Source of the DNA: a virus
Strand: one strand, 5' to 3'
DNA length: 57,193 nucleotides
Virus record (IMG/VR): IMGVR_UViG_3300032331_001351
Location: 1 to 57,193 of that record
Part shown: positions 4,742 through 48,932 of the stretch, one piece after another
Numbering within the stretch: position 1 is the stretch's first letter
How the letters are laid out: the number at the start of each line of letters is the position of its first letter
Program-made: the position numbers and the translations under genes
Notes under the pieces: model-generated
What the model was told of the DNA's origin: nothing
Databases searched by the model: none
The model's input: the letters and a program-made list of their open reading frames with translations, nothing else

Positions 4742-5176
4742 TTAACCTCTGTACCAAACGTGTGAATGATAATCCTCAGCTAAAAAGCCGTAGATGTGTA
4801 AATCGTCGTCAGCCAACGCTTTACGCATCACGCCTTCTAACTTAAACCCAAAATGCTCATTGAGTTTTTTAGCTAGTTTGTTTTTACCGCGCAGCAAACC
4901 GGTAACCCGTGCCGCCCGCAGCTTGTCAAACACAAAACCAAAAACCTCATTAAACATCTCAATCGTGCCTTTCGGCGTTACTTTCCTGTTGTCAATGACA
5001 ATGCTGAGGTCAATGTTACGGGGCGTGAAATTAGTCATCACCACGACGCATACAAACTCATCATTCTCATCCACCGCCGACATCGTCCTGAAGAACGATG
5101 GCGCATTTTCAAGCTCTAGTTTTGCACGCGCCCAAGCCTCAGCTTCGTCTTCGCGTTCAAAACCAATAAACCGCAT
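4742..5176 (-). CDS. GNAT-fold acetyltransferase-like virion protein
   Basis: This 144-residue protein has the layout of GNAT-like proteins found in podovirus late operons (T7 internal protein A-like): an N-terminal helix pair, a central strand region (FVCVVVMTNF) and a terminal ...HFGFKLEGVMRKAL....IYGF segment, which matches the last helix-strand unit of the GNAT fold. The canonical acetyl-CoA Q/RxxGxG/A loop is not obvious (RAARVTGLLRGKN may replace it), so catalytic activity is uncertain. Its stop is 1 base from the next start at 4740, and its start overlaps the stop of 5176-5412. Confidence 0.65.
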   Translation of the reverse strand: MRFIGFEREDEAEAWARAKLELENAPSFFRTMSAVDENDEFVCVVVMTNFTPRNIDLSIVIDNRKVTPKGTIEMFNEVFGFVFDKLRAARVTGLLRGKNKLAKKLNEHFGFKLEGVMRKALADDDLHIYGFLAEDYHSHVWYRG

Positions 5177-32749: not shown

Positions 32750-34310
32750 ACGGGTTTACCCTCGGTTTGTTAGAGATGCGAGGCTCGTCGATATCTTTTG
32801 CTTGAGGTAAATCAAACCATCTATCATTTTTGAGATAAATGATAGCTTGCGTAAACGTGTCAACATAATCATCATGCTCCGCTACTGGGAACTTGCCCAG
32901 TTGTTTGAGGAAAGCCGCTGCCCAACTCACCGGGTGTCCGGGGTTCTTTCCTGATTCCGGTACCCACAACAACCCCAACTCCAAGGTGGGCGCGGCTTGA
33001 TGTGCCCTTGATACCTTGTCAGCCTGACCTGGATTATAGCCCACGGCGGGCACTTTCGCCAAGCGCAAGTCTTGCAACAATGATTGACCGCTGGCTTTCG
33101 CTTCCACCAATATCCTGTCCGGGCGGCGGGCGCGTGAGTACGGAGAGTCCTTCGTCATGCCGCCGTATTCCGTCGTCCAGTCTTTCACGGCTCGTGCCCG
33201 CAAGTCTGGATAGCTCAGGTGTTCGTCCCACGCATCAATGAGCATTGCATTGCGCTCCCCCTTGTGCGTGAACATCGCCCAGACCGAGCAGGCAGTCGGG
33301 TCACCCGTTGTCTTCTCAGTGAACGCACAGTCGTAGGACTGCAGTATGTACTCAAACGGGGGCAGCGGTGACGTCGATGGCCAGAGTTTGAAGTGCGAGG
33401 TCTTGAGGATACCGCCCTCGCTCGGTGTGGGGTCTTGCTGTAGCTGACCGGCGGTTCCGTATGTACCCAACAGCTGCTTCAGCATCGTGATCTCGGCTGC
33501 ACCGAACCGCTCTGGGCAGATCAGCTCGCCTTTCGTCTTACGGGGGTCGTAGGGTCCGAGCACAGTCTTACGTGACTTACCGTCCCACTCTGCCGGAATG
33601 CAAATATGCTCCCAGCCCTTGATGTCCTCAAGGATGTGTCCGCTGATGTCACGCTCGTGTAGGCGCTGCATGACGGTCACCATCGCATCGGTCTTCGGGT
33701 TGTTGAGTCGCGTTGACCACACCATGTCAAACCACTCAAGGTCTGACTCACGCATGACCTCTGACTGCGCGGCTTGAGCGCCGTGCGGGTCGTCAAGTAT
33801 CAAGCGTGAGCCGCCTTCACCCGTGGCTGTACCGCCGACCGAGGTCGCGAGCCGGTAACCGGTCTTGTCGTTCTCAAACCGCTGCTTGGCGTTCTGGTCG
33901 CCGGCAAAGGCAAACATGTAGCCCCATCGTTCCTGATACCACGGTGACTGCAACAGTCGCCGGGTCTTCAAGTTGTCGCGTGTGCTCAGGTTGCCAGAGT
34001 ACGACGCGCACAGGAACTTCTGAGCAGGGTCAGTAATCCACTCCCACGCTGGCCACATGACGCTGACGATGGTCGACTTTGAATGCCGGGGTGGGATGTT
34101 AATGAGCAGCCGGTGTATCTCACCCGCGCTCACTGCCTCAAGATGTTCGCAGATCGCCTCAATGTGCCAACTCGCAATGAACGGTATACCCGGCTCAACC
34201 ACGTGCCAGCTCTGCTTGACGAACTCGTACAGCGAACCCGAAGCAGAGCGGCGCTCTTGCTCTCGCTTGACGAGGTCAAGCATGACAGCCGGGTTCATGG
34301 GCGCGTTCAC
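32739..34310 (-). CDS. terL: Terminase large subunit
   Basis: This 523-residue motor packages DNA into the head. The ATPase half has a Walker A-like loop INIPPRHSKST (residues 71-80; a deviant A motif with PRHSKS, known in several terminases), an adenine/coupling WPAWEW segment, and a Walker B RLILDDP near 168. The nuclease half has YDCAFTEKTTGDPTACSVW (RNase H fold strand with Asp), DRILVEAKASGQSL and HDDYVDTFTQAI (acidic metal ligands). Its stop overlaps the mini-gene 32585-32749 and its start overlaps the small subunit by 4 bases. Confidence 0.93.
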   Translation of the reverse strand: MNAPMNPAVMLDLVKREQERRSASGSLYEFVKQSWHVVEPGIPFIASWHIEAICEHLEAVSAGEIHRLLINIPPRHSKSTIVSVMWPAWEWITDPAQKFLCASYSGNLSTRDNLKTRRLLQSPWYQERWGYMFAFAGDQNAKQRFENDKTGYRLATSVGGTATGEGGSRLILDDPHGAQAAQSEVMRESDLEWFDMVWSTRLNNPKTDAMVTVMQRLHERDISGHILEDIKGWEHICIPAEWDGKSRKTVLGPYDPRKTKGELICPERFGAAEITMLKQLLGTYGTAGQLQQDPTPSEGGILKTSHFKLWPSTSPLPPFEYILQSYDCAFTEKTTGDPTACSVWAMFTHKGERNAMLIDAWDEHLSYPDLRARAVKDWTTEYGGMTKDSPYSRARRPDRILVEAKASGQSLLQDLRLAKVPAVGYNPGQADKVSRAHQAAPTLELGLLWVPESGKNPGHPVSWAAAFLKQLGKFPVAEHDDYVDTFTQAIIYLKNDRWFDLPQAKDIDEPRISNKPRVNPYAA

Positions 34311-34897
34311 TTCTGCCCAGCCTTGGCGAGCAAGCGGCTCATGTTCTCAAGCTCGTCATCGCTCAGGTTCTTCAGGTCGACCGCCGCGAGTGCGATTGGA
34401 CCGCCGTTTGAGCCGGTGTGCTCCTGGGTGATCTTGTCGCCGTAGACCTTGGGCAGCATCTTGCTGAGCATCCACTTGCGGGTGTCAATCTGAACCCGCT
34501 TGTGCGCAATGACGTCGCTGTTGAGCGGTAGCAGCATCTGCTTGAGCTTGGGCTTACCGTCCGGTTCAAACAGGGGGTCGCCGTCCGGGGACAGCTCCTG
34601 CACCGTCACCCACTCGTGCGTCTTGTCGCTCAGCGCGACGATCTCATCAGCGAGCAGCAGGTAGCCGATCTCGCGGGCGTGCGCGTAGTCCTTGCCTATC
34701 CCCTCCGGGTCTGTCTGAATCCAAGCCAGAAAACCCGCCACAGTTGGCATACCGGGGTCAGTCGAGCAGATGTTTTCAAGCGAGCGCCCCTTCTGCAGCT
34801 CCGCGCAGACATGAGCAGAGACCTGCTCCCGGTCGTACTTCCGGGCGGTAGGACGCGGTACACCTTTGCTGGTGCGAACTGGGGTTGTGTTATTCAT
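34307..34897 (-). CDS. terS: Terminase small subunit
   Basis: I take the start at the ATG at 34897 (196 residues, MNNTTPVRTSKGVPRPTARKYDREQVSAHV). A longer frame that would begin with TTG at 34939 runs through a promoter and is not credible. The N-terminal half (HVCAELQKGRSLENICSTDPGMPTVAGFLAWIQTD) is a helix-turn-helix of the small-terminase/Sf6-like kind; the rest is helical (RVQIDTRKWMLSKMLPKVYGDK, a typical small-terminase segment). It recognises the packaging site and activates TerL. Transcription from the promoter 34905-34933 would begin only a base or so before the ATG, so a leaderless message is possible. Confidence 0.88.
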   Translation of the reverse strand: MNNTTPVRTSKGVPRPTARKYDREQVSAHVCAELQKGRSLENICSTDPGMPTVAGFLAWIQTDPEGIGKDYAHAREIGYLLLADEIVALSDKTHEWVTVQELSPDGDPLFEPDGKPKLKQMLLPLNSDVIAHKRVQIDTRKWMLSKMLPKVYGDKITQEHTGSNGGPIALAAVDLKNLSDDELENMSRLLAKAGQK

Positions 34898-34904
34898 GAT
34901 TGAG

Positions 34905-34933
34905 ATTATACCTTCCTGAGTCAAAAAAGACAA
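34905..34933 (-). promoter_or_regulatory. Leftward phage promoter of the terminase genes
   Basis: On the minus strand TTGTCT (34933-34928), followed by TTTTTGACTCAGG, is 17 bp from TATAAT (34910-34905). Only 7 bases separate TATAAT from the ATG of terS (34897), so the start point would coincide with the start codon. An AGGAAGG lies between the boxes and would serve as a ribosome site only in longer transcripts. Confidence 0.75.
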
Positions 34934-34949
34934 GCACAAAAGTGATCGG

Positions 34950-41357: not shown

Positions 41358-41581
41358 CTGAGAACGCACCTGAGTTGTTAGACGTGCTGTGGTTCAACAG
41401 CGGTAAAGGGATTGTAGGCGTTGCTGCCGTACAAACTGAGCCGACTGTCATCAAGTTTTACATCTGCCCGGTTGATGGTTTTAATGAAGTCATTGACGCT
41501 AATTTGGTCATGTCACATGGCGCAGCTTTCCCTGAAGTTGCCGGTTACGCATTATTTGGTATTACGGAGACAACAATATGA
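41354..41581 (+). CDS. Small protein of unknown function ahead of the modification cassette
   Basis: The protein has 75 residues. It is beta-rich: LDVLWFNSGKGIVGVAAV, VIKFYICPVDGFNEVIDANLVMSHGAAFP. It overlaps both neighbours (ATGA at both ends), so it belongs to the same transcript as the PLP enzyme. No domain recognised. Confidence 0.7.
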   Translation: MTENAPELLDVLWFNSGKGIVGVAAVQTEPTVIKFYICPVDGFNEVIDANLVMSHGAAFPEVAGYALFGITETTI

Positions 41582-42534
41582 ACACAGTATTCCCAGAGTT
41601 GGCGCTTGACCGCAACGTAGTCAAGTGGGAGCAACACCTCGGCACGCAGACACCATGGGAGAACCGCAAGGGTCTCTGGTTCAAACGTGATGACTACTTT
41701 GCCCCGCTCGGCTACAGCGGTCCTAACGGCTCAAAGATGCGCCAGCTGATTTGGTACGTAAACAAGTTCCGCGCAGGTAAGACCCACATTGTCACTGGCG
41801 CAAGTATTCAATCCCCTCAGCTGAGCATGAGCGCCATCGTTGGTGCACATTACGGGTTACGCGCCCGTCAAATCGTATACAGCAAACCTGAAACCGTATT
41901 ACGTCACGAGAACCCGCGCATCGCCTACGGCTTTGATGCTGAGTTTGAATACGCTTCTGGTCCGTACAATCCTATTTTACAGCGTAAGGTGGTTGACCTG
42001 ACGCAGCCCACCTCGCTCGTAGTTGAGTACGGTATCACTGTGCCGCATGACCGCTACTCTGAGGATGACGTGCGTAAGTTTCACGAGGTCGGCGCTCATC
42101 AGACCTCTAACGTCCCGCCTGAAGTCAAGCGCCTTATCGCTCCTGCCGGGTCTTGTAATTCGTTGACGAGCATCATGCTCGGCTTGAGCCGTGATCCGCA
42201 CAATATTGATGAACTGTTCACTATAGGAATCGGTCCCGACAAGCGCGGCTGGATGCGTCAGCGCCTTGCGTACATCGGTATTGACGTCGACAAGCTGCCG
42301 TTCAGATGGAAGCATTACAGTCTGCACGACAACGGCTACAGCAAGTATAGCGATCACTTCACCGGTGAGAGTTTTGATGGCATCAAGTTTCATCCGACCT
42401 ACGAGGCTAAGATGTGGCGCTGGTTGACACACCATAACCAGTTGGAGTATGATGACAGCACCGCATTTTGGATTGTAGGCAGCGCCCCCGACACAAAAAT
42501 TGTTGAACCCTTTTACACTAGGAGACCCGTATGA
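41578..42534 (+). CDS. PLP-dependent enzyme, fold-type II (ACC deaminase/D-cysteine desulfhydrase-like), putative DNA base hypermodification enzyme
   Basis: The protein has 318 residues. LWFKRDDYFAPLGYSGPNGSKMRQL (residues 33-57) corresponds to the KR(E/D)D...GGNKxRKL signature of fold-type II PLP enzymes; Lys53 is the expected Schiff-base lysine. APAGSCNSLTSIMLGL (about 188-203) fits the phosphate-binding loop (GTGGTxAGL in relatives). A THIVTGASIQSPQLSMSAIVGAHYG stretch corresponds to the Asn/Gln substrate-binding loop. A PLP enzyme in a thymine modification operon would decarboxylate, eliminate or otherwise edit the amino acid attached to the base. Known phage sets usually have different PLP enzymes. 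It is coupled upstream and downstream (ATGA). Confidence 0.72.
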   Translation: MNTVFPELALDRNVVKWEQHLGTQTPWENRKGLWFKRDDYFAPLGYSGPNGSKMRQLIWYVNKFRAGKTHIVTGASIQSPQLSMSAIVGAHYGLRARQIVYSKPETVLRHENPRIAYGFDAEFEYASGPYNPILQRKVVDLTQPTSLVVEYGITVPHDRYSEDDVRKFHEVGAHQTSNVPPEVKRLIAPAGSCNSLTSIMLGLSRDPHNIDELFTIGIGPDKRGWMRQRLAYIGIDVDKLPFRWKHYSLHDNGYSKYSDHFTGESFDGIKFHPTYEAKMWRWLTHHNQLEYDDSTAFWIVGSAPDTKIVEPFYTRRPV

Positions 42535-42734
42535 AGAACCCTGACAACAAAGACTATCAACCCTGGCTAGAGAAGACCGGCGGTTTTGCCCGTGACATGA
42601 CCATGCTTGAGCGAGTAGCGCTTGAGGTGTTACCGTTTATGGTTTCAAATGACGAGACTGATTTTGCGGAAGACGTTGACGCTGCTTTTTCAGTCGCCAA
42701 GCATTTCTTAGCTGAGAGAGCAAAACACATATGA
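42531..42734 (+). CDS. Small helical protein inside the modification cassette
   Basis: The protein has 67 residues, acidic (DETDFAEDVDAAFSVAKHFLAERAKHI), and overlaps both neighbours by 4 bases. The helical segments MTMLERVALEVLPFM suggest a partner or regulatory role for the flanking enzymes. No domain is recognised; conserved linkage would be the best evidence. Confidence 0.7.
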   Translation: MKNPDNKDYQPWLEKTGGFARDMTMLERVALEVLPFMVSNDETDFAEDVDAAFSVAKHFLAERAKHI

Positions 42735-43729
42735 AAGACTACCGCCTACCGGAAAACCGGGAAGAGTACTTCACGGCGCTCTATAAGATGAATCTTGATT
42801 ACGGGGTTATGCCCGGTCTGGTTTATTTGTACATGCCTGAACTCGCTCGCCGCTATGAGTGGGACGCTGAGCAGAAGCTCTGGTTCGCATTTTTGAACGG
42901 CATGACGCAGAACCCTATAACTTCGCTGCGCTTGTTCACCCGTCTACCTAGCGTTCCCCCTGCGGGCGCTCAGCTGACACATTTCAACGACTGGTTTAAC
43001 GATCAATGGGATACGCTCCAGTTTGACACCGACCGCCGGTATCAGAAACGCGACACCCTTGAAGCTATCAAGACCTACGCTAAGTTGGTTGAGGAGTTTG
43101 GCTCTCAAGAGGCGATGTTGACCGGCAAACCGTACTCAGAGCTTTGGGATCTCGTGCGCAACCGCTACTACAGCTTTGGTCGCCTGTCATCGTTCAGCTA
43201 CCTCGAGTATGTCTACTTGAACGGCTACGGCGCTGACTGTGATGACCTGCTGTTCAGCGATAAGTCGGGCAGCAAATCACACCGTAACGGGATGTTGTTT
43301 TTGATCGGTAAAGATGAGTTGGTTTGGGATAAGCGACTACCTAACGGGCAAGACGGTAACTACCCTAAATTCAAATTAATGTGCGGGTTTTTAGCTTCCG
43401 GTGCCGACACTTTAATTGATGCGTTCAAATTGAATTACCCTAGCGTGCCTAACGTGGGTCGGTTCACTATGGAGTCAAACCTTTGCACGTTCAAGAATCA
43501 TTTCTTCGGTCGGCGCTACCCCGGTGTTTACGCTGACATGGCTCAAGAAAGAATTGACTGGGCTGACGCACGTGACCAGAGCGCCTACACCGAGGTGTTC
43601 AAAGACATGCGGTCACAGCTGCTGCCTGACTGGTTACGGGCTGAATGCGGTGGTAGCTCAGCAATTAAAGTGAACGCGGCGGTTTTCCCTGAGACGGGTA
43701 TGCCTTTCAGAGCGGAGCATTTTCTATGA
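42731..43729 (+). CDS. Amino acid:DNA transferase / alpha-glutamyl-putrescinyl-thymine pyrophosphorylase-like protein
   Basis: The protein has 332 residues and is predicted helical. The N-terminal block YFTALYKMNLDYGVMPGLVYLYMPELARRY and the following EQKLWFAFLNGMTQNPITSLRLF resemble the DNA-hypermodification helical family (aGPT-Pplase/amino acid:DNA transferase) that replaces the pyrophosphate on 5-pyrophosphoryloxymethyl-dU in DNA with an amino acid. C-terminal blocks are GCDDLLFSDKSGSKSHRNGML (near 185) and SNLCTFKNHFFGRRYPGVY. Its operon partners are the kinase (43726-44304), helical-domain protein (44297-45217) and TS homologue. The assignment is from pattern memory, not a profile search. 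Confidence 0.7.
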   Translation: MKDYRLPENREEYFTALYKMNLDYGVMPGLVYLYMPELARRYEWDAEQKLWFAFLNGMTQNPITSLRLFTRLPSVPPAGAQLTHFNDWFNDQWDTLQFDTDRRYQKRDTLEAIKTYAKLVEEFGSQEAMLTGKPYSELWDLVRNRYYSFGRLSSFSYLEYVYLNGYGADCDDLLFSDKSGSKSHRNGMLFLIGKDELVWDKRLPNGQDGNYPKFKLMCGFLASGADTLIDAFKLNYPSVPNVGRFTMESNLCTFKNHFFGRRYPGVYADMAQERIDWADARDQSAYTEVFKDMRSQLLPDWLRAECGGSSAIKVNAAVFPETGMPFRAEHFL

Positions 43730-44304
43730 AACACGTCATCCTTAGAATCGCTGGCACGTTCGGCTCGGGCAAGACCACCGCTATGCGGGGATTCTTTGAT
43801 TACCCGACTGAGACTTTAATGAGCGGTAAAAAGATCGCCGGATACAAGGTTGACGCTAGCGCTGCCGGAATCACGCAGCCGATCTACGTGGTTGGTAAGT
43901 ATGACAACACGTGCGGTGGCACCGATGCCATCAAGACTCAGGCTGAGATTGCCGAGAAGATCCTGAAAGCGCACCCCCTAGGGCACGTGTTATATGAAGG
44001 CGCTTTGGTGTCTGCGAGCGGACTCGCCGGGCAGGTGACGCAAGCGATTCACCCTACCGGTTGTGACGTGTACGCATTCCTCGATACGCCGCAAGACCTC
44101 TGCGTTGAGCGGGTAAAGGGACGCCGCCTCGCCGCTGGTAATGAGAAAGAGTTCGACCCGAAGAACCTGATTGACAAGTTTGATTCAGTCGTCAACTGTT
44201 ATAAGAACCTGCGCAACGAGGGTACGTATGACGTCCGTAGGATTGACCACACCAACCCGCACCCACAATTAGTAGAAATTATAAAGGAGTACGAAAATGA
44301 TTGA
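43726..44304 (+). CDS. P-loop 5-hydroxymethyl-dU DNA kinase-like protein
   Basis: The protein has 192 residues. Walker A GTFGSGKTT (residues 10-18) is followed by a VGKYDNTCGGTDAIKTQ segment (near 60), typical of the nucleotide-kinase-like P-loop proteins linked to DNA base modification, then HVLYEGALVSAS, a possible Walker B/substrate region, and a LID-like CVERVKGRRLAAGN. In known pathways this enzyme phosphorylates 5-hydroxymethyl-dU in DNA to give the pyrophosphoryl leaving group. It overlaps its two neighbours by 4-8 bases. Confidence 0.75.
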   Translation: MKHVILRIAGTFGSGKTTAMRGFFDYPTETLMSGKKIAGYKVDASAAGITQPIYVVGKYDNTCGGTDAIKTQAEIAEKILKAHPLGHVLYEGALVSASGLAGQVTQAIHPTGCDVYAFLDTPQDLCVERVKGRRLAAGNEKEFDPKNLIDKFDSVVNCYKNLRNEGTYDVRRIDHTNPHPQLVEIIKEYEND

Positions 44305-45217
44305 CGAATGCCCATACCCGATGCCGACGGCTGAGACGGTATGCTCGATGGAGGGGTTGCTTTACTTCATTTGGGAACGCGAAGCTATTCGTCTTGCCCG
44401 TGAAAACGGTCACGCCGCGCCCTGGACTAAAGACCCGGTGCTCGCCAAGTACAAGTTTACTAACATTCACCGCAGCGATGATCGAGGCTCACAATGGATC
44501 ATTGATCACTTGATAGAACCAGCAGCGGCTAACGGCGATGAGCACTTGTGGTTTACGTTGTTGATCGCTCGCCTCATCAACTGGCCACCTACGCTACAGG
44601 TGTTGATTGACAAAAAAGTCATACCTTGCGCTCCTGAAAACTTTGATGCTGAGATGTTTGAGCACGCGCTTGAGCGCCTCAAAAAAGACGGTAAGAAGGT
44701 TTACTCGGGCGCGTATATGCTTTACCCTACAAAGATGGAGCCGGGGGGTAACAAGTCCAAGGCGGTCGCTAAGTACATCATCGGCAGCGCTATTGAGAAC
44801 GCTGACAACATCAGCGCCTCACTGTGGAACAACGAGCGGGGAATGTCTATTGAGCGGTTTGTAACTGAGCTGAGTAAGTGCTTCGGCATCAGTACTTTTA
44901 TTGCCGGGCAAGTAGCCGCAGACCTGACCTACACGGGTATGGACGTTGAAGATCTTTACACTTTTGCGCCTATTGGTCCCGGTAGCTCTCGGGGTTTGAA
45001 CTACTTACTAGGTAAACCGCCGTTCGCAACTTGGAAACAGAAAGAGTTCAACGCTGAGCTGAGTAACATCTTTGCCCACGCTGCTGACCGGCTTGACATC
45101 ATTGACATGACGCTGCATGATGTTCAGAACTGCATGTGCGAGTACAGCAAATACTGCCGCGCAGTCCTGGGCGAAGGTAAACCAAAAACAATTTATAAAA
45201 CAGAAACGGAGTTTTAA
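44297..45217 (+). CDS. 5hmdU DNA kinase-type helical-domain protein (DNA base hypermodification protein)
   Basis: The protein has 306 residues. FIWEREAIRLARENGHAAPWTKDPVLAKYKFTNIHRSDDRGSQWII (about 24-70) is the hallmark of the helical domain family associated with 5-hydroxymethyl-dU DNA kinases (eR..I.....G...PWT.DP.L..Y.F.N..R..DR...W). The C-terminal block HDVQNCMCEYSKYCRAVLGEG has a Cys pattern consistent with DNA contact in this family. In several phages this domain is fused to the kinase; here it is separate, next to the P-loop gene (43726-44304). It overlaps that gene by 8 bases and is 2 bases from the TS homologue. Confidence 0.75.
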   Translation: MIDECPYPMPTAETVCSMEGLLYFIWEREAIRLARENGHAAPWTKDPVLAKYKFTNIHRSDDRGSQWIIDHLIEPAAANGDEHLWFTLLIARLINWPPTLQVLIDKKVIPCAPENFDAEMFEHALERLKKDGKKVYSGAYMLYPTKMEPGGNKSKAVAKYIIGSAIENADNISASLWNNERGMSIERFVTELSKCFGISTFIAGQVAADLTYTGMDVEDLYTFAPIGPGSSRGLNYLLGKPPFATWKQKEFNAELSNIFAHAADRLDIIDMTLHDVQNCMCEYSKYCRAVLGEGKPKTIYKTETEF

Positions 45218-45218
45218 G

Positions 45219-46256
45219 ATGGAACTGTTAGTAAGAAATGTCAATCAAGCGTTTAGCGAAATCTTCTGGAAAATGAAGGTGCTCAATCTCCAGCCAGAAC
45301 AGACCCGTAACGGTCTCGCTATGGTTTACCCTGAGCCGGTGATCACAGTTTATAAATATCCGTACGAGCGCGTCCTGTTTGACAAAAAGCGCGACGCTAA
45401 CCCTATCTTTCATCTGATGGAGTCAATCTGGATGCTCGCAGGGCGCAATGACGTTGCGTTCCTACAGCAGTTCAACAAGCGCATGGTCGAGTTCAGCGAC
45501 GACGGTAAGACGTTTAACGCCGCCTATGGTCACCGCTGGCGTAAGCATTTCGGTCGTGACCAGCTTGATGAAGTTATCAGGTTGTTGCGCCGCGACCCTA
45601 CTACCCGTCAGGCTGTTGTTCAGATTTGGGACGATGCAGACTTGGCTAAGAAGACTAAAGACAAAGCATGCAATACGCAGATCATTTTTGATACGCGTAA
45701 CAACCGCCTGAACATGACGGTGTTCAACCGGTCAAATGATATCTGGTGGGGTGCTTACGGCGCTAACGCGGTGCACTTTAGTTTCTTGCAGGAGTTTGTC
45801 GCCTCCGCTATAGCTATGCACTTAGGCGTGTACCGTCAGGTCAGTAACAACTTACACCTTTACACAGAGCTTTATAACGCTAAAGATTACCTGTTTGCGC
45901 CGCCTGACGCAGACAGCTATGACCTTTACCGTAAAGGTGAAGTGCGCCCCCTGCCAATCATGTTGAACGGCGAGTACAAGTTGTTCCTAGCTGAATGTGA
46001 GATGTTCTGCCACGATCCTTTTAACGAGCGTATACACTACGCTAACCCGTTCTTTGAGCACGTGGCTCACCCAATGGCTATGGTCAGCAAGGTACGTAAT
46101 ATACACGCCGGTGACGGGCGTAGCTACGCGGCTAAAATCCGCGCTGCCGATTGGAAACGCGCCACTTTCGATTGGATTGACCGCCGCGAACACGCTCGTA
46201 AAATGAAAGAGGAAGATGACGAGATAAACGAGTTGCGTAAAGCTGTGAAAAAATAA
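45219..46256 (+). CDS. Thymidylate synthase homologue, probable dUMP hydroxymethylase
   Basis: The ATG at 45219 is chosen over longer in-frame starts because it follows ACGGAG (7 nt) and lies 2 bases behind the previous stop. The protein has 345 residues. HLMESIWMLAG gives the folate/active-site Glu68-Trp71 pair, KACNTQI holds the nucleophile Cys151, FNRSNDIWWG supplies the Arg171/Asp174 pair, and GANAVHFSFLQE places an Asn (183) near the position that selects dUMP in thymidylate synthase (Asp there marks dCMP enzymes). Alignment needs one residue insertion, so this is not decisive. In this cassette it would convert dUMP to 5-hydroxymethyl-dUMP. Plain TS remains possible. Confidence 0.78.
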   Translation: MELLVRNVNQAFSEIFWKMKVLNLQPEQTRNGLAMVYPEPVITVYKYPYERVLFDKKRDANPIFHLMESIWMLAGRNDVAFLQQFNKRMVEFSDDGKTFNAAYGHRWRKHFGRDQLDEVIRLLRRDPTTRQAVVQIWDDADLAKKTKDKACNTQIIFDTRNNRLNMTVFNRSNDIWWGAYGANAVHFSFLQEFVASAIAMHLGVYRQVSNNLHLYTELYNAKDYLFAPPDADSYDLYRKGEVRPLPIMLNGEYKLFLAECEMFCHDPFNERIHYANPFFEHVAHPMAMVSKVRNIHAGDGRSYAAKIRAADWKRATFDWIDRREHARKMKEEDDEINELRKAVKK

Positions 46257-46319: not shown

Positions 46320-46808
46320 GTGAAACAAACCCTTGATTTTATTCTGGCTGGAAGCGAAGTAAAGCGGTATCATACCGTGACTACGCTCGTGTCTGAGACC
46401 GTCGGTCATCATTCACACGGCGTGGCTATGCTTTGCCTTCTTTTCGACCCTATGGCGAGCCGTCAGGTGCTGATGGCTGCGATGTTTCATGACCTCGCGG
46501 AGTTTCAAACCGGGGACATCCCCTCACCGGCAAAGCGTGAGTTTGGCATCGGCGGTAAGGTAGACGAATTGGAACTGCGTCTGATGACCGCTGCCGGAAT
46601 CATAATGCCTCACCTCACCCCCGAAGACAAGCGCACTCTCAAACTCTCTGACGTAGCTCAGGGGGCGTTGTTTTGCGCCCGAGAGCTTTCCCTCGGTAAT
46701 AAGCGTATGCGCCGCGTCTTCGATCGTTACATGAGCTACGCTGACGAGATGATGCTCGTCGGACGTGAGCGTGAAATTTTCAACATGATAAAGGACTACG
46801 CAGCATGA
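46320..46808 (+). CDS. HD-domain nucleotide phosphohydrolase (YfbR/DatZ-like)
   Basis: The protein starts with GTG and has 162 residues. HHSHGVAM (His31/His33), MFHDLAE (HD at 57-58, Glu61) and TGDIPSPAKREFG make the HD-type nucleotidase/triphosphohydrolase signature of YfbR and DatZ. The substrate could be dTMP, dTTP or another nucleotide. In a phage with modified thymine it could remove the ordinary T precursors. DatZ acts with PurZ in 2-aminoadenine phages, but there is no PurZ here. It has its own promoter and GGAG site. Confidence 0.78.
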   Translation: MKQTLDFILAGSEVKRYHTVTTLVSETVGHHSHGVAMLCLLFDPMASRQVLMAAMFHDLAEFQTGDIPSPAKREFGIGGKVDELELRLMTAAGIIMPHLTPEDKRTLKLSDVAQGALFCARELSLGNKRMRRVFDRYMSYADEMMLVGREREIFNMIKDYAA

Positions 46809-47089
46809 GCGCGGCTAATCAAAAACAAATCGGCGGTAATCACTACAAGCACGGCGGTGAGGAACACTGGGACCGCGTGCATCGTTTGAATTTGAATTAC
46901 TTTCAAGCAGCCACCACTAAGTATGTTGAGCGTTGCTACCTGAAAGGTAATCCGATTCAAGACTTACAGAAAGCCGTTCATTTCCTTGAGAAGTTGATCG
47001 AGATCGAGCAGCGTAAAGCTGATGAAAAATGCGTCGCGGTTCTAAGTGATGGCAGCGAGCCGACCTCCGGTTATGTTAACCAAGACTGA
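46805..47089 (+). CDS. DUF3310 protein (T7 gp1.7 nucleotide kinase-like)
   Basis: The protein has 94 residues. KQIGGNHYKHGGEEHWDRVHRLNLNYFQAATTKYVERCYLKGNPIQDLQKAVHFLEKLIEIE is the full DUF3310 pattern (GGxHY...WD...YF....KY..R...K.....DL.KA..YL..LIE). In T7 the gp1.7 protein with this domain is a nucleotide kinase for dTMP/dGMP. It could phosphorylate the hydroxymethylated nucleotide here, which is inference. It overlaps the HD gene by 4 bases and the polymerase by 44. Confidence 0.8.
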   Translation: MSAANQKQIGGNHYKHGGEEHWDRVHRLNLNYFQAATTKYVERCYLKGNPIQDLQKAVHFLEKLIEIEQRKADEKCVAVLSDGSEPTSGYVNQD

Positions 47090-48932
47090 CATGGGGACTT
47101 GGGTGTTTGATACTGAAACTCTACCTAATCGTACTTTGTTCTGCGCTAAGAACATTGAGACGGGGGAGTGGTTTGACTTGTGGCGTCACACTGACGACGC
47201 CCCGGCTCGTCTTACCCGTTTCGTACAGCAGCCCGACACGACATTGATCGGCTTCAACAGTAAGTCGTTTGACAACGCGGTCGTGGCGGCTTTCTGCCTC
47301 GGCAGGAGTGAGATAGAGATCAAGCGTATTGCTGATGACATCATCACCAATCGTCTTGCGCCGTGGAATTCGATGCGCAAGCACAATTTACGTGACATCA
47401 TTCTTGATGACATTGACTTGATTGAGGTCGCCCCGTCATTTGTAGGTTTGAAAGCCTACGGCGCTCGCATGCACATGCCTAAGTTGCAGGACATGCCTAT
47501 CGCCCATGACGCGATGATCACCCCCGAGCAAGAGCCCATGCTTTTGGAGTACTGCCACAACGACGTAGATACGACCGCCGAGCTGTTGAATCAGCTCGAA
47601 GGTGAGTTATTACTGCGCGTTGAGATGAGCCGCCGGTACGGAGCAGACATGCGTAGCAAGTCTGATTCGCAGATGGCTGAACAGGCTTACATCACTAGCA
47701 TGGGTCTCAAGCGTCAAGATAATGAGATACCTAAAACTGTTAAATATACCCCTCCGGCATTTTTAAAGTTTATGGACGCAGAGCTACAGGGGCTGCTTGA
47801 CCGCGTCTCTAAGCACGTGTTCAATATGAACTCGGTCACTGGGCACGTGCAGCTTCCAGATTTCCTCGGTGAACAAGCAATCGTTTTTGGCAGCGGTCAA
47901 TATCAACTCGGCGTGGGCGGTATACACAGCGTGCATGATAAGCAGGTTTGTTACGTTGCCGGTGATGATTACATTTGTGATATTGATGCAGCGTCGTTCT
48001 ACCCAAGTATCATCCTTGAGTGCGGCTTTGTGCCGGTTGCATTGGGTAAGCGGTTTGTTGAAGAGTATCGCAAGATTTACGAGCGCCGCCTCGAGGCAAA
48101 GCGCAACGGCGACAAGATAACTGACGCAACGCTGAAGATTTCCCTGAACGGCACGTTCGGTAAGCTGGCTAGCCGTTACTCAGTGTTGTACTCGCCGGAC
48201 TTGATGTTGGCGGTTACGTTGACTGGCCAGTTCACTCTGCTCATGTTGATTGAGTGGCTTGAGCGAGCTGGGGCTGTGACGCTATCAGCTAATACTGATG
48301 GCATCGCAATTCATTTCAACAAGGAGAAAAAAGAGCTGATTGAAAAAGTAGTTAACAAATTTAGTGAGGTGTCTGGGTTCGCGTTTGAATACACGTATTA
48401 CCGCGCCCTCGCTATGAAAGACGTCAACAACTATATTGCGGTCAAACCCGACCGTAAGCTGAAAGTGAAAGGCATTTATGCGCCACTCTCTCTTAAGAAA
48501 AACCCGACGGCACAAGTTGCAGCGGATGCGGTTGGAGCATGGTTGGCAAGCGGTATACCGTTTGAAACAACTATCAAAAATGCTCCATTCACTGACTTCA
48601 TCAGCGCCCGGAACGTCACTGGTGGCGGTCAGCAGAATAGCTTCTACTTGGGTAAAGTTGTACGATGGTATCAGTCGACCGACGCTGCTCTTGAACCGAT
48701 TAAGTATGCTTCGAACGGTAATAAAGTACCGAAGACAGAAGGCGCTAGAGCCTGCATGACCCTGCTTGATAAACAGATTCACCCACTTGATCTTGACTAT
48801 AACTGGTATAACAAAGAGGCGATCAAAATCGCCATCGCGGTTGGCTGCGCACATTATTTGACCTCGGAGCAACTCGCTCTAGTGGCACCACCACCAAAGA
48901 AAACTAGGAAAGTTAAAAATGGAACAAGGTAA
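47046..48932 (+). CDS. Family B DNA polymerase with 3'-5' exonuclease
   Basis: The protein is up to 628 residues (GTG ATG start at 47046/47049; a later ATG at 47073 or 47091 is possible because no clear ribosome site is seen). The exonuclease has FDTE (21-24), FNSKSFDN and the YCHNDVDTT motif III. The polymerase has motif A DIDAASFYPSII (about 311-322), motif B LKISLNGTFGK (about 360-371) and motif C NTDG (about 415). This is a family B enzyme, unusual next to a prim-pol/helicase set. It would have to accept the modified thymidine triphosphate if 5hmdUTP is used. Confidence 0.92.
   Translation: MMAASRPPVMLTKTDMGTWVFDTETLPNRTLFCAKNIETGEWFDLWRHTDDAPARLTRFVQQPDTTLIGFNSKSFDNAVVAAFCLGRSEIEIKRIADDIITNRLAPWNSMRKHNLRDIILDDIDLIEVAPSFVGLKAYGARMHMPKLQDMPIAHDAMITPEQEPMLLEYCHNDVDTTAELLNQLEGELLLRVEMSRRYGADMRSKSDSQMAEQAYITSMGLKRQDNEIPKTVKYTPPAFLKFMDAELQGLLDRVSKHVFNMNSVTGHVQLPDFLGEQAIVFGSGQYQLGVGGIHSVHDKQVCYVAGDDYICDIDAASFYPSIILECGFVPVALGKRFVEEYRKIYERRLEAKRNGDKITDATLKISLNGTFGKLASRYSVLYSPDLMLAVTLTGQFTLLMLIEWLERAGAVTLSANTDGIAIHFNKEKKELIEKVVNKFSEVSGFAFEYTYYRALAMKDVNNYIAVKPDRKLKVKGIYAPLSLKKNPTAQVAADAVGAWLASGIPFETTIKNAPFTDFISARNVTGGGQQNSFYLGKVVRWYQSTDAALEPIKYASNGNKVPKTEGARACMTLLDKQIHPLDLDYNWYNKEAIKIAIAVGCAHYLTSEQLALVAPPPKKTRKVKNGTR

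Follow-up and report, generated by a model that had tools for sequence, protein, structure and literature searches.

The stretch of viral DNA analyzed here (hereafter the window) is a 57,193-base virus record by itself (IMG/VR record IMGVR_UViG_3300032331_001351) and contains a gene cassette of the thymine-hypermodification type at positions 41578-46256. This cassette probably represents the known pathway of Salmonella phage ViI in a new genome background, and the likeliest base suggested by its genes is 5-(2-aminoethoxy)methyl-deoxyuridine (5-NeOmdU). Phages with established bases, namely Pseudomonas phage M6 with 5-(2-aminoethyl)-deoxyuridine (5-NedU) and ViI with 5-NeOmdU, served as references (PMC6449724). 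An earlier note on this DNA had recognized a thymine-hypermodification cassette, and five of the genes do fall in known families of this kind, but its statement that the enzyme set fits no pathway could not be upheld. The ViI record (Vi01) contains homologues of all five proteins, i.e., the thymidylate synthase (TS) homologue (060c), the kinase (061c), the helical-domain protein (130c), the pyridoxal phosphate (PLP) enzyme (182), and the amino acid:DNA transferase (ADDT; 199). Furthermore, no match to the radical S-adenosylmethionine (SAM) domain PF04055 was found in the window, searched in six frames, or in the whole Vi01 record, whereas M6 has such a match.

The PLP enzyme (41578..42534; plus strand, like all genes of the cassette and those following it) is of the ViI type. 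It is homologous to Vi01_182/orf226 (31% identity over 382 columns, E 4e-59) and matched phrog_3650 in a profile search (E 9e-74). Its fold, as modeled by AlphaFold (pLDDT 88.5), is matched by D-cysteine desulfhydrase (DCyD) and 1-aminocyclopropane-1-carboxylate (ACC) deaminase, both of fold-type II (E 2.7e-11). A further profile search points to the two enzymes as well, so the assignment to fold-type II in the earlier note was right. Residue K53, located in PNGSKMRQ, is invariant in 43 sequences of relatives, is aligned in ViI-, M6- and DCyD-type enzymes and is predicted to be the Schiff-base lysine. The motifs G.NGSK[ML]RQ.IW and PAGSCNS.TS are common to the PLP enzymes of the window and of the ViI type, whereas the M6 enzyme is devoid of them. 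In blastp searches with the PLP and ADDT proteins of the window, M6 gp51 was not matched and M6 gp52 was matched over 32 residues only.

The PLP enzyme is likely the decarboxylase of a DNA-attached amino acid, and no decarboxylase is therefore missing from the cassette. The lack of a radical SAM gene, which had been noticed before and was confirmed here, is expected, since the PLP enzyme and the ADDT are of the ViI type and ViI likewise has no such gene. The earlier argument that the final base could be new because a radical SAM enzyme and a second decarboxylase are missing thus loses its ground.

The ADDT (aGPT-Pplase2; 42731..43729) is homologous to Vi01_199/orf247 (26% identity, E 2e-29) and matched PF18724 (E 1.4e-17); its predicted reaction is the transfer of an amino acid onto phosphomethyl-dU in DNA. 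In a profile-profile comparison, the window-type ADDT matched the ViI type with 99.9% (E 4.9e-33) and the M6 type with 3.8%. Trees separate the ADDT and the PLP enzyme alike from the M6 type with a split support of 100/100. The best PDB match of the ADDT model (pLDDT 91.6) is 8z2n, the 5-phosphomethyl-dU (5-PmdU) glycinyltransferase gp46 of PaMx11 (TM ~0.5, probability 1.00, E only 0.07), and in a viral structure library ADDT-domain proteins were matched, one of them from Salmonella phage 38. The entry 8z2n was found by the fold search only; PDB sequence searches with the ADDT and helical-domain proteins, including the ADDT profile, returned nothing.

The three remaining proteins would provide the substrate of the ADDT. 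The P-loop kinase (43726..44304; P-loop GTFGSGKTT) is of the 5-hydroxymethyl-dU (5-hmdU) DNA kinase type and matched phrog_800 (E 9e-17), with identities of 30% to M6 gp54 and 28% to Vi01_061c. The family to which these three proteins belong is widely annotated as "terminase small subunit"; a separate small terminase gene is located in the window at 34307-34939, and the label on phrog_800 kinases is an apparent misannotation. The 5-hmdU DNA kinase helical domain protein (HMUDK_hel, aGPT-Pplase1; 44297..45217) matched PF18723 (E 3.1e-45) and is 31% identical to M6 gp55 and 22% to Vi01_130c. With these profile searches, which the earlier note had proposed as a check, the transferase and the helical-domain protein were both placed in the families named for them.

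The TS homologue (45219..46256), likely a dUMP hydroxymethylase, matched PF00303 (E 5.5e-21) and phrog_5131 (E 5.5e-106) and is 44% identical to M6 gp58 and 40% to the Vi01 TS over 191 aa. It retains the catalytic Cys and the uracil-selecting Asn, and since the CMP enzyme MilA has Asp at the latter site, dUMP is the expected substrate. The Epa5 row of the TS tree was disregarded, and the conclusion does not depend on this row.

The genes expected for the ViI pathway were all found in the window, i.e., those for a TS-type enzyme, a kinase with a separate helical-domain protein, and an ADDT and a PLP enzyme of the ViI subfamilies, together with the lack of radical SAM. Of the components of the M6 pathway, neither a radical SAM gene beside ADDT and PLP genes nor an ADDT and PLP enzyme of the M6 subfamilies is present. 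The window differs from ViI in that the Vi01 genes are scattered over 157 kb, whereas those of the window are packed into a single operon of a 57-kb genome; its proteins are 22-40% identical to those of ViI, and its ADDT is not nested in the ViI clade. Ackermannviridae, to which the 5-NeOmdU pathway of ViI belongs, are large phages of about 140-165 kb, and the cassette would extend ViI-type chemistry from these to small, widespread 57-kb phages. According to PMC11721090, modification genes are conserved throughout the Ackermannviridae.

In its operon form and its gene order (PLP enzyme, kinase, helical-domain protein, TS, HD-domain protein, DUF3310-like protein, polymerase), the cassette resembles the 5-NedU cassette of M6/YuA, to which the TS (44%) and the helical-domain protein (31%) are also similar. 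M6 differs, however, by its radical SAM enzyme and by an ADDT and a PLP enzyme of its own type, and its polymerase belongs to another family (no blastp match between the window polymerase and M6 gp62). The operon is thus a mosaic, because the TS, helical-domain, HD and DUF3310-like genes and the order are nearer to M6 and the PLP/ADDT pair is of the ViI type. This speaks for the idea that ADDT and PLP enzyme form a tailoring module exchanged on a common hydroxymethylase-kinase core.

Two further cassettes are related more loosely. That of PaMx11/Epa5 (gp46/PUGT, PDB 8z2n) shares the ADDT fold and homologues of the kinase, helical-domain, TS and HD proteins, but a flavin adenine dinucleotide (FAD) oxidoreductase and an acetyltransferase replace the PLP enzyme and the ADDT is of the M6 type; these two enzymes of the acetylaminomethyl-dU pathway were not found among the cassette ORFs (open reading frames) of the window. 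Glutamicibacter phage Montesquieu has a ViI-type ADDT (38% identity) adjoining a related PLP enzyme as well as helical-domain and TS genes, but its kinases match Ploopntkinase3 instead of HMUDK_HMUD1 and its PLP enzyme is divergent.

Among the cultured phages inspected, the M6-type ADDT is found with radical SAM in M6, YuA, Clover, CN1 and RHph_I72, and is accompanied by FAD and acetyltransferase genes in PaMx11. The ViI-type ADDT is found with a ViI-type PLP enzyme in Vi01, LIMEstone1, Vibrio 1.244.A and K469, and with the divergent one in Montesquieu. Only Zemanar departs from this pattern, with a ViI-type ADDT but neither a ViI-type PLP enzyme nor the 5-hmdU kinase helical domain. These pairings provide a rule by which the base can be predicted from gene content: an M6-type ADDT goes with genes for radical SAM, FAD or acetyltransferase enzymes and a ViI-type ADDT with a ViI-type PLP enzyme.

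Two scans of IMG/VR yielded relatives with 79 distinct ADDT sequences. For at least 55 of these, all five genes were found in the fetched stretch, and none of these stretches contained an M6-type radical SAM gene. Among phage records, PLP homologues are present in 346 and ADDT homologues in 374, which is a nearly equal number from nearly the same kinds of phages, the excess being mainly due to 27 mycobacteriophages. No cultured carrier of the window's cassette was found. In its head proteins, the window resembles Caulobacter phages, for example RW with a capsid identity of 83.5%; the hosts of phages with a capsid protein this similar (83%) are Caulobacter vibrioides. RW has no annotated cassette and is absent among the ADDT and PLP matches listed.

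From the families, subfamilies, catalytic residues, synteny and recurrence of these genes, the following reactions can be proposed. The TS homologue would convert dUMP to hydroxymethyl-dUMP, which would enter the DNA as 5-hmdU, and some of the 5-hmdU in DNA would then be phosphorylated by the P-loop kinase together with the helical-domain protein. The ADDT would then displace the phosphate by an amino acid bound via its side chain, probably serine in O-linkage by analogy to ViI, for which Lee et al. 2022 reportedly identified serine as the transferred amino acid. Finally, the fold-type II PLP enzyme would remove the carboxylate on the DNA, resulting in 5-NeOmdU. A free amino group is needed for the PLP aldimine, and an N-joined amino acid could not readily form the Schiff base; a side-chain linkage therefore fits, and no radical SAM isomerase is required. 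In ViI DNA, 43% 5-NeOmdU, 7% 5-hmdU and 50% T were determined, and it is resistant to 71% of a panel of more than 200 type II restriction enzymes (PMC6449724). Because of this resistance, protection of the virion DNA from nucleases is the likely benefit of the base here as well.

Several observations weigh against a plain equivalence with ViI. The kinase matches the 5-hmdU DNA kinase family PF18748 with E 3.9e-5, which is below the Pfam cut-off. In the ADDT tree, ViI is farther from the window clade than Montesquieu and the mycobacteriophage Zemanar are (91/84), so that the amino acid could differ. Furthermore, two near-complete relatives carry no PLP gene, and decarboxylation is therefore not obligatory in the group. 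These are L103 (G001, 60.8 kb) and L121 (G002, 57.5 kb), in which the ADDT, kinase, helical-domain and TS proteins are present at 57-73% identity; a PLP homologue was found in neither contig by whole-contig search (in the closer reading, 781 bases of one contig were left out). Provided that the PLP enzyme acts as the decarboxylase, modification in both phages is expected to end with the amino acid adduct, and their DNA would show whether a base that still has its carboxylate can be stable.

Also with respect to the PLP gene, a 101.8-kb IMG/VR contig (G007, behind L056/L106) contains two full polymerase-linked cassettes, one with and one without it. Because of the two full cassettes, this contig probably joins two phages, and it was set aside as a case of a PLP gene far from the ADDT.

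The same pathway logic with another amino acid (e.g., threonine, cysteine or a diamine-type residue) would lead to a base related to but unlike 5-NeOmdU. The position of the ADDT in the tree, its identity of only 26% to that of ViI and the fact that transferase subfamilies differ in product, PaMx11 gp46 being a glycinyltransferase, speak for this variant, but its PLP partner belongs to the ViI type, with which it shares active-site motifs, and the two enzymes travel together as in ViI, which makes this variant unlikely. The combined case, in which a non-serine transferase makes a new thymine base and the PLP-less relatives keep an undecarboxylated, zwitterionic second new base, is likewise regarded as rather doubtful. 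A new base may be made, but the findings do not point to one; what is new about the ViI-type cassette is its mosaic operon and the branch without PLP gene rather than the chemistry.

A pathway of the M6 type, in which glycine would be attached, isomerized and decarboxylated to 5-NedU, is favored by the M6-like TS, helical-domain, HD and DUF3310-like genes and their order. It was rejected on the radical SAM, ADDT and PLP tests, and as no homologue of M6 gp53 was found in the window or in the IMG/VR contigs of 17 relatives searched whole, it is very improbable. Equally little can be said for a further modification such as N-acetylation to an acetylated aminoethoxymethyl-dU. An acetyltransferase is part of the PaMx11 cassette and the window has a GNAT-like acyltransferase gene (4742-5176, minus strand; phrog_4470, weak PF13302), but this gene lies about 36 kb off in the structural module, occurs in 6 of the 17 relatives' contigs, has no PaMx11 match and is thought unlikely to be an extra tailoring enzyme. 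An inactive cassette, or one that yields only 5-hmdU or the phosphorylated base, is hardly credible with five intact ORFs, invariant key residues and a gene set that recurs unchanged alongside 55 distinct transferase sequences.

All six ORFs of the region are present on the plus strand, as in the tight operon described before, and are packed with overlaps of 4-8 nt or nearly abutting junctions. The E-values of the family matches are much too low to be due to chance. The ORF without such a match (42531..42734) encodes a 67-aa protein, the small helical protein of the earlier note, overlaps each neighbor by 4 nt and had no family match in Pfam and PHROG profile searches; similar ORFs are present in a few relatives (L009, L010, L083, L099, L100, L109, L121). 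For the TS gene, the most likely start is the ATG at 45219, located behind GGAG and one base past the preceding stop codon, and not 45117.

Downstream of the TS gene, an HD-domain 5'-deoxynucleotidase-like protein (46320..46808; PF12917, E 8.2e-10; 36% identity to M6 gp59) is encoded in a position syntenic with M6 gp59. It stays adjacent to the TS gene in relatives and has a possible role in the nucleotide pool. It is followed by a 94-aa DUF3310-like protein (46805..47089), which is syntenic with M6 gp61 (43% identity over 63 aa) and whose homologue in Rhizobium phage RHph_I72 carries the DUF3310 annotation, and by the DNA polymerase (47046..48932; phrog_1252, E 6.6e-159), the last gene of the conserved order. 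A promoter and terminator scan gave no clear result (14 promoter-like sites compared to 7.1 in shuffles, terminators at chance), and a 12-kb part of the window had no megablast match among phages.

Some relatives combine the transferase with other genes. In L124 (1787-5208), a distant M6-type ADDT, a window-type ADDT and a window-type PLP enzyme occur in one cluster, with a 252-aa protein without Pfam match between them; this cluster possibly makes a different base. Related 257-aa proteins, of which one was tested and had no Pfam match, precede the window-type ADDT in L125 (2436-4203) and L128 (7241-9008), where PLP, kinase and TS genes were not detected within the fetched stretch. In Mycobacterium phage Zemanar (L137, 785-2826, gp2-gp3), gp2, annotated as queuine tRNA-ribosyltransferase, weakly matches the Tet_JBP oxygenase family (E 5.5e-6) and adjoins the ADDT-family gene gp3, and no HMUDK_hel is present in the genome; this arrangement suggests an oxygenase-fed hypermodification route. 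Rhizobium phage RHph_I72 (L141, 428-5343) has an M6-type ADDT and radical SAM with no PLP enzyme of the M6 or ViI type detectable in the fetched stretch, a gene set that would predict a carboxylated glycine-derived base.

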